DNA of 50,660 nucleotides from Bacillota bacterium (GTDB lineage: Bacteria > Bacillota > DTU065). The notes below the pieces were generated by a model. That model was given only the letters and a program-made list of their open reading frames with translations. It ran no database searches and had not been told where the DNA came from. The DNA is taken from positions 1 through 50,660 of the forward strand of contig JAHDNZ010000035.1 in assembly GCA_018435125.1 (NCBI GenBank), given 5' to 3'. Positions 50,093 to 50,569 of the stretch are shown in pieces (position 1 is the stretch's first letter; each line of letters opens with the position of its first letter). The translations under genes were made by a program, and so were the position numbers.

Positions 50093-50205
50093 CGTAACCC
50101 TCCTCGATTTTCTCCTCAAATTAATTTGCCCTACTTTATATAACCTAATCATCTTCTGCTGGAGATACTTTTGCTTGTGATAATCATTTCAGATCAAACT
50201 TTCCC

Positions 50206-50234
50206 TTGCCAGATTCAAATATTTCTGTAATAAT
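50206..50234 (+). promoter_or_regulatory. Promoter of the leader-peptide transcript
   Basis: TTGCCA (50206-50211), 17 bp, AATAAT (50229-50234), with a TG extension before TAATAAT. Predicted start about 50241, 45 nt before the 28-codon ORF. Confidence 0.5.
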
Positions 50235-50287
50235 TAGGTTGTTAAAACTTCTTTAGCTTTACATAAATTGAAAGGAGGTGTGAGCAG

Positions 50288-50374
50288 ATGCTGAGGAAGA
50301 ACAGGTTTGCTCTTAACTTTGGTTTTATACTTTTTTCTACCATAACCCCAGCGTTGGCTCACACTAACTTGTAA
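50288..50374 (+). CDS. 28-aa signal-peptide-like leader ORF
   Basis: AAAGGAGGTG lies 7 nt before ATG 50288, an ideal site. The peptide begins MLRKNRFALNFGFIL and ends STITPALA-HTNL. It has a basic N-region, a hydrophobic core and an A-L-A cleavage site, so it is a complete signal peptide with only about four residues after it. It may be a regulatory leader whose translation controls the downstream hairpins, or a precursor of a short secreted peptide. Codons for P-A-L-A coincide with hairpin segment 1 (50350-50359). Confidence 0.62.
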   Translation: MLRKNRFALNFGFILFSTITPALAHTNL

Positions 50375-50435
50375 GAGCGATTTTTTGCCATGCTTATTTT
50401 ACAGCCAACGCTTCACGAAAGGAGACGTTGGCTGT
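50350..50435 (+). promoter_or_regulatory. Mutually exclusive hairpins (attenuator-like)
   Basis: Segment 1 AGCGTTGGCT (50350-50359), inside the leader ORF, is perfectly complementary to segment 2 AGCCAACGCT (50403-50412). Segment 2, shifted by two (ACAGCCAACG, 50401-50410), is equally complementary over 10 bp to segment 3 CGTTGGCTGT (50426-50435). The two pairings cannot coexist. The 2:3 hairpin places the ribosome binding site GAAAGGAG (50417-50424) in its loop, with the next ATG three bases past its stem. A ribosome on the leader would cover segment 1 and favour 2:3. Pairing is seen; control is inferred. Confidence 0.65.
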
Positions 50436-50437
50436 TT

Positions 50438-50569
50438 ATGTATACAAATGCTGAAGAAATTCTGCCAGAAGAACTCCTCCGGCAAGTACAAGAATATATT
50501 CAAGGTCAAGAAATTTATATACCCAAATTGCAATTTCAAGTTGAACTACCGTCCAAGATAGTTTTGTAG
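50438..50569 (+). CDS. Short CD3324-like ORF, probably truncated (43 aa)
   Basis: Starts MYTNAEEILPEELLRQVQ and continues EYIQGQEIYIPK. This matches the N-terminus of CD3324-type clostridial proteins (about 85-90 aa, with a C-terminal helix-turn-helix). After IYIPK the sequence diverges (LQFQVELPSKIVL) and stops at TAG 50567-50569, so the expected helix-turn-helix half is missing. No other frame restores it. It may be a truncated remnant or a genuine short form. Its ribosome binding site lies in the loop of the 2:3 hairpin. Confidence 0.55.
   Translation: MYTNAEEILPEELLRQVQEYIQGQEIYIPKLQFQVELPSKIVL

Follow-up and report, generated by a model that had tools for sequence, protein, structure and literature searches.

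At the right end of a Bacillota contig, a short open reading frame (ORF) led by its own Shine-Dalgarno (SD) sequence overlaps the first of several segments that can pair with one another in mutually exclusive ways upstream of another ORF. This arrangement raises the question of whether the segments form a regulatory leader, which gene such a leader would serve and what it would respond to. The window, i.e., the whole stretch of DNA analysed, is one complete contig (G000:C44; 50.7 kb) of a 2.5 Mb Bacillota draft genome, and its relevant features are listed in Table 1. A preliminary description made from the sequence had proposed an attenuator of three segments acting on translation start, with a leader peptide reporting secretion.

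Table 1. Positions in the window of the leader, its pairing segments and the adjoining regulator gene.
Feature	Position	Strand	Basis
Promoter: ACTTTCCCTTG(CCA) -35 region, 17-nt spacer, TGtAATAAT -10	50198–50234	+	sigma-70 scan
Leader SD, AAAGGAGG	50271–50278	+	sequence; SD-led leader start in 39/39 type-A loci
Segment A: 3' half of leader SD, start codon and first codons; pairs with B	50277–50293	+	fold, duplex and cross-locus test, pair counts
Leader ORF, 28 codons, MLRKNRFALNFGFILFSTITPALAHTNL	50288–50374	+	ORF list; frame control
Segment B: 3' end of leader ORF; contains earlier segment 1 (50350–50359); pairs with A or C	50349–50365	+	fold, cross-locus test
Weak GCTC..GAGC stem with T6 behind it, spanning the leader stop codon; putative weak terminator that shares B	50357–50386	+	sequence, by eye
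Segment C: contains earlier segment 2; pairs with B or D	50401–50414	+	fold, cross-locus test
Segment D: regulator SD GGAG (50421–50424) and earlier segment 3 (50426–50435)	50421–50435	+	fold, cross-locus test
CD3324-family (Mor-type HTH) regulator gene, 5' part	50438–50569	+	NCBIfam NF040785, E 4e-11
Multi-copy insertion sequence, left end	50524–50660		copies at several contig ends; flanks compared

The gene behind the leader had been taken for a short ORF. In fact, the reading frame starting at 50438 corresponds over its first ~30 codons to the N-terminus of a CD3324-family protein (NF040785, E 4e-11), whereas its codons past ~50523 derive from an insertion sequence which cuts the gene at ~50524, the remainder of the gene lying at the start of contig C91. 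The direct repeat AGAAATTTATATACC (50509–50523), found again at the start of C91, is a candidate 15-bp target duplication, and the same insertion sequence is probably behind the assembly breaks at several contig ends. The truncated copy scores below the curated cut-off of NF040785, and a Pfam search with the window ORF alone returned only sub-threshold chance names; its identification is based on the NCBIfam match together with its relatives, whose intact genes lie above the curated cut-off for NF040785 / PF08765. Since these intact homologues match the Pfam Mor family (PF08765) and PHROG late transcriptional activators, the CD3324 gene is, judged by family membership, one for a small HTH regulator. 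In the source genome the regulator is probably broken while the leader is intact; functional inference consequently rests on the relatives.

Upstream, a sigma-70 scan reveals a promoter core TTGCCA-17-AATAAT with an extended TG (50206–50234), and comparison of upstream regions shows the ACTTTCCCTTG block to be kept in front of CD3324 leaders in many families. The leader ORF and its strong SD are present as first described. Likewise, the two 10-bp pairings hold: 1:2 (B:C) joins 50350–50359 with 50403–50412 entirely by Watson-Crick pairs, and 2:3 (C:D) joins 50401–50410 with 50426–50435, sharing segment 2 in a slightly shifted register. The exact common core of the three segments is the 8-mer CGTTGGCT / AGCCAACG / CGTTGGCT. 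A comparable triple arises in 1/2000 dinucleotide shuffles of 50240–50440, and the entire window holds only three per strand. The fold of the region has a z of -4.85, none of 200 shuffles being as stable.

The three segments are thus real, but the set is incomplete, as a fourth segment, A, lies over the leader SD and start and forms a 16-bp helix with B at the 3' end of the leader ORF. The C:D helix consists of 10+4 bp, the last four being formed by GGAG (50421–50424) with CUUC (50411–50414). The regulator SD, previously placed within the 2:3 loop, is therefore not simply looped out but predicted to be paired, extending the stem. Both SDs are occluded when A:B and C:D form together, and B:C is incompatible with either helix. 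In the C:D state, the predicted pairing probability of the regulator SD is 0.80 in the window, with a median of 0.61 over 38 loci, falling below 0.4 in several of these.

Because the window's genus, order and class each comprise no more than 1 to 5 genomes, sampling was widened to the phylum and to the class of G136. All four other sequenced members of the window's family keep the promoter, the leader ORF, all four segments and an intact CD3324 gene, and complementary changes occur among the family members in A:B, B:C and C:D. In one of them (G003), CCAACG/CGTTGG in C/D becomes CTGACG/CGTCAG with B shifting along, and A/B exhibits U-A to C-G exchanges. Shuffle and slide controls within this family clearly favor A:B and C:D, and B:C less so; covariation of B:C is weak in the window's family and absent within alignment A5, but strong across families. 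B, C and D are largely invariant (CGTTGGCC), which leaves part of the pairing without support from change.

CD3324 genes are present in 41/399 sampled genomes of the phylum and in 37/73 genomes of another class. Altogether, 39 loci from 39 species share the A-B-C-D arrangement of the window (type A). In these loci, duplex energies of segments from one locus were compared with those of segments combined across loci, with zones set by position only. Own-locus pairing is favored for A:B (z = -5.2), B:C (-5.6) and C:D (-7.5), as opposed to the control pairs A:C (-1.8), A:D (-1.1) and B:D (+0.35); common ancestry inflates such values, and the three control pairs carry the same bias. Covariation, a check that the preliminary description had proposed for its three segments, is thus seen for all three helices across 39 species. 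Furthermore, a covariance model built from 11 sequences, all from the other class and none from the window, blindly recovers the window leader at full length (50263–50450; 40.5 bits, E 1.2e-7), the runner-up match scoring 27 bits lower. Over the 73 genomes, the model matches 29/37 with and 0/36 without CD3324 (Fisher 2e-13). Every site adjoins a CD3324 gene, one per genome except for an antisense echo in G439. Among the eight CD3324 genomes that the model missed, three (G405, G416 and G430) have the leader by eye, while the upstream regions of five more distant CD3324 genes of the same class lack it. Searched against Rfam, the leaders match no family at gathering score. Neighboring genes differ between clades, so that regulator and leader appear to be a self-contained unit. 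Far from being a product of chance, the feature is a conserved 5' leader that is dedicated to the CD3324 regulator.

On this basis, we consider it rather probable that the leader works as an attenuator which depends on its uORF and serves the CD3324-family regulator alone, a ribosome held early on the leader releasing the regulator. With no ribosome on the leader, A:B and C:D would form, hiding the leader SD and start as well as the regulator SD and keeping both off. A ribosome that stalls or lingers at the leader start or first codons would occupy A while B and C are being synthesized, allowing B:C to form, leaving D and both SDs free and permitting translation of the regulator. A ribosome running through to the leader stop would instead cover B, favor C:D and leave the regulator off. 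That B:C is the on state and stalling the trigger is what we infer from this geometry. Such a switch would report ribosomes held up near the beginning of a short ORF whose exact sequence matters little, and thus presumably general translation stress, and would release a small HTH activator which may also drive its own promoter via a motif around the -35 box. Consistent with this proposal, freeing D costs less with A masked in 31/39 loci (15.7 vs. 21.4 kcal/mol in the window; median 9.2 vs. 13.4). However, C:D remains the lowest-energy fold at equilibrium even with A masked; the switch would therefore need co-transcriptional kinetics or active help from the ribosome. The long spacing of ~13 nt between the regulator SD and its start also counts against the proposal.

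Whether the leader acts through its peptide or through its translation can be judged from the relatives. The leader ORF is 21–54 codons long and open in 39/39 loci, the other frames in 0/39 and 9/39 (8.9 expected), a control biased in that the presence of a leader ORF was a criterion for choosing the loci. From the start codon to B the distances vary (40, 43, 49, and 64 nt), yet they keep a single frame in 12/13 relatives. The peptides themselves are unrelated between families, conserve no arrest motif and show no obvious regulatory amino acid in their composition. B is read in all three frames across families (as ALA, VGLP, or WPA/RWP), and it is therefore the RNA and not the peptide that is conserved. 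The leader ORF is probably translated, its product hardly mattering. These findings bear on the earlier suggestion of a SecM/VemP-like secretion monitor, in which a hydrophobic leader stalls on failed export and unmasks the gene. The window leader does resemble a short signal peptide, yet a strongly hydrophobic stretch (Kyte-Doolittle mean of 1.9 over 12 residues) occurs in only 5/39 leaders, four of them with a positive N-terminus, and the regulated gene encodes a DNA-binding protein rather than a Sec factor. Secretion sensing is largely refuted by the peptide comparison and very improbable; the lack of peptide conservation argues against nascent-chain arrest and points toward ribosome position itself.

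A rival reading assigns the same leader a mainly transcriptional output: the alternative pairings would govern termination at an intrinsic site located between B and C, in the manner of whiB7- or trp-type systems, with translation control secondary. Contrary to the first description, which set the layout apart from T-run terminators, L029 and L045 possess strong ones (CCCACCGG..CCGGTGGG-TTTTTT) in the stretch separating B from C, meaning that control may extend to transcription, and the weak GCTC..GAGC-T(n) stem is kept in the five members of the window's family. Most type-A loci nevertheless have no convincing terminator there by eye, whereas the C:D helix stands beside the gene SD in nearly all loci and shows the strongest covariation, which makes a primarily transcriptional output rather unlikely. 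The constancy of CGTTGGCC in B, C and D, the HTH protein encoded by the gene and the inverted repeats beside its start codon could alternatively indicate DNA operator half-sites for the CD3324 protein or another factor, with RNA pairing a by-product. This appears improbable given that A:B uses unrelated, covarying sequence, that G-U pairs and compensatory changes are present, and that B in L037, L046 and L074 is devoid of the core yet still pairs with C; moreover, B:C spacing varies widely and the sites are found past the promoter, within a kept ORF. Finally, a strongly folded leader with mutually exclusive helices would also suit a ligand-binding riboswitch or an RNA thermometer with an incidental ORF. 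Apart from the absence of an Rfam match, the A-B loop and B-C spacer vary greatly and contain no conserved unpaired core of the kind expected of an aptamer, and the reading frame is kept, all of which renders this reading unlikely. An attenuator acting at translation start, as initially proposed, thus continues to be favored by three covarying helices, a kept frame and linkage to a single gene family.

Many families have, in front of the leader, a motif, GGAAAGnnnnnTTCCGAnnnnACTTT(C)CCTTG, whose end falls in the -35 box. It occurs once each in 19/30 genomes (≤3 mismatches), always upstream of CD3324; in the window promoter, only its ACTTTCCCTTG part is recognizable. The promoter motif GGAAAGnnnnnTTCCGAnnnnACTTTCCCTTG, seen upstream of CD3324 in many families (e.g., L109 and L124), is unique to the CD3324 promoter in the genomes having it. 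Autoregulation by the HTH protein would be the simplest reading of the promoter motif.

Beyond type A, CD3324 genes in other Bacillota (e.g., L032, L036, L050 and L062) also follow SD-led short ORFs with competing helices of unrelated sequence, and no such leader was seen upstream of CD3324 in L064, L065, L070, L099 and L105–L107. The attenuator logic may accordingly be older than its sequence. L038, L040 and L071 carry another family of CD3324 leader peptides, with the conserved core HAKPxxxxAILCMG, which overlap alternately pairing GCAAAG/CTTTGC segments. Searches of plasmids with the leader DNA or leader peptides, including one of the HAKPxxxxAILCMG type, gave no match; CD3324 itself appears there in five records, named as CD3324 family only, and none was found in phages. 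A PDB sequence search gave no useful relative, and in the literature library searched nothing relevant to CD3324 or yraL turned up, no paper there describing the family under the name CD3324.

The surroundings of the gene hold further small elements. Most type-A loci have a conserved micro-ORF of nine codons, led by an SD of its own, 63–120 nt downstream of the CD3324 stop (in the source genome at about 417–458 of L015, G000:C91), encoding M-I-x-x-R-W/Y peptides such as MINQRWLKL, MINQRWLRV, MINQRWWEA, MINPRWSQL, MIFRRYGKL and MIVRRYGQL. Its SD and start lie within a hairpin, GGTTGAnnTGATCAACC, in some families. As it is preceded by a TATAAT-like box and followed by an intrinsic terminator, it is probably a separate tiny transcript. 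The family-specific pattern occurs once per genome in 8/399 genomes. In other clades (L042, L058, L043, L057, L060), similar micro-ORFs lie upstream of CD3324 (MISVYEVVSV, MIKDIYEVANL, MIYNKRWCFA). A ZMP-ZTP riboswitch is located a few hundred nucleotides after the CD3324 gene in L045 (2136–2224).

With CD3324 genes in about a tenth of the sampled Bacillota genomes, the family is a widespread one, and the uORF switch provides a first testable hypothesis for its role, namely that translation stress is reported to transcription. It also adds a new class of target to uORF attenuation, and relatives with intact genes are at hand for testing.

The preliminary description knew of no system with such a layout, but known systems come close, the likeness to ermC, whiB7/wblC and toiL being one of working only, with no homology claimed. 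In translational attenuation of the ermC type (ErmCL leader), pairing 1:2 with 3:4 is the off state and 2:3 the on state. The CD3324 layout is essentially of this type: an SD-led leader ORF, the same off/on helix logic, a last segment masking the target SD and ribosome position as the deciding factor. It differs in that segment 1 takes in the SD and start of the leader itself, that segment 2 lies within the 3' coding end of the leader, that no arrest peptide is conserved and that the target is a transcription regulator instead of a resistance methylase. SecM and VemP likewise place a leader peptide upstream of a masked SD, but depend on a conserved arrest peptide and a secretion signal, neither of which was found in CD3324 leaders. 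The uORF toiL of Escherichia coli topAI-yjhQ senses several classes of ribosome inhibitors, since a ribosome stalled at any of its positions exposes the ribosome-binding site downstream (PMC12121999). CD3324 leaders may similarly require no specific peptide, although toiL differs in structure, in its toxin-antitoxin target and in its link to Rho. In whiB7/wblC of Actinobacteria, a uORF gates a transcription activator (PMC7157823, PMC11550727); stress on uORF translation switches whiB7 on (PMC11550727), and wblC is autoregulated, its protein binding beside the -35 box (PMC7157823). A uORF-controlled leader before a small DNA-binding activator is common to both, whiB7 employing a Rho-independent terminator and a WhiB protein where SD masking and a Mor-type HTH protein are predicted here. 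In gating an activator that may be autoregulated, the CD3324 leader is closest to whiB7. It may even be speculated, as a tentative and somewhat doubtful extension, that CD3324 is to Bacillota what WhiB7 is to Actinobacteria: an autoregulated activator that a uORF attenuator would set free under impaired translation. The logic of this attenuator would be kept though its sequence differs between clades, and the gene would travel with the nine-codon micro-ORF transcript as a self-contained cassette.
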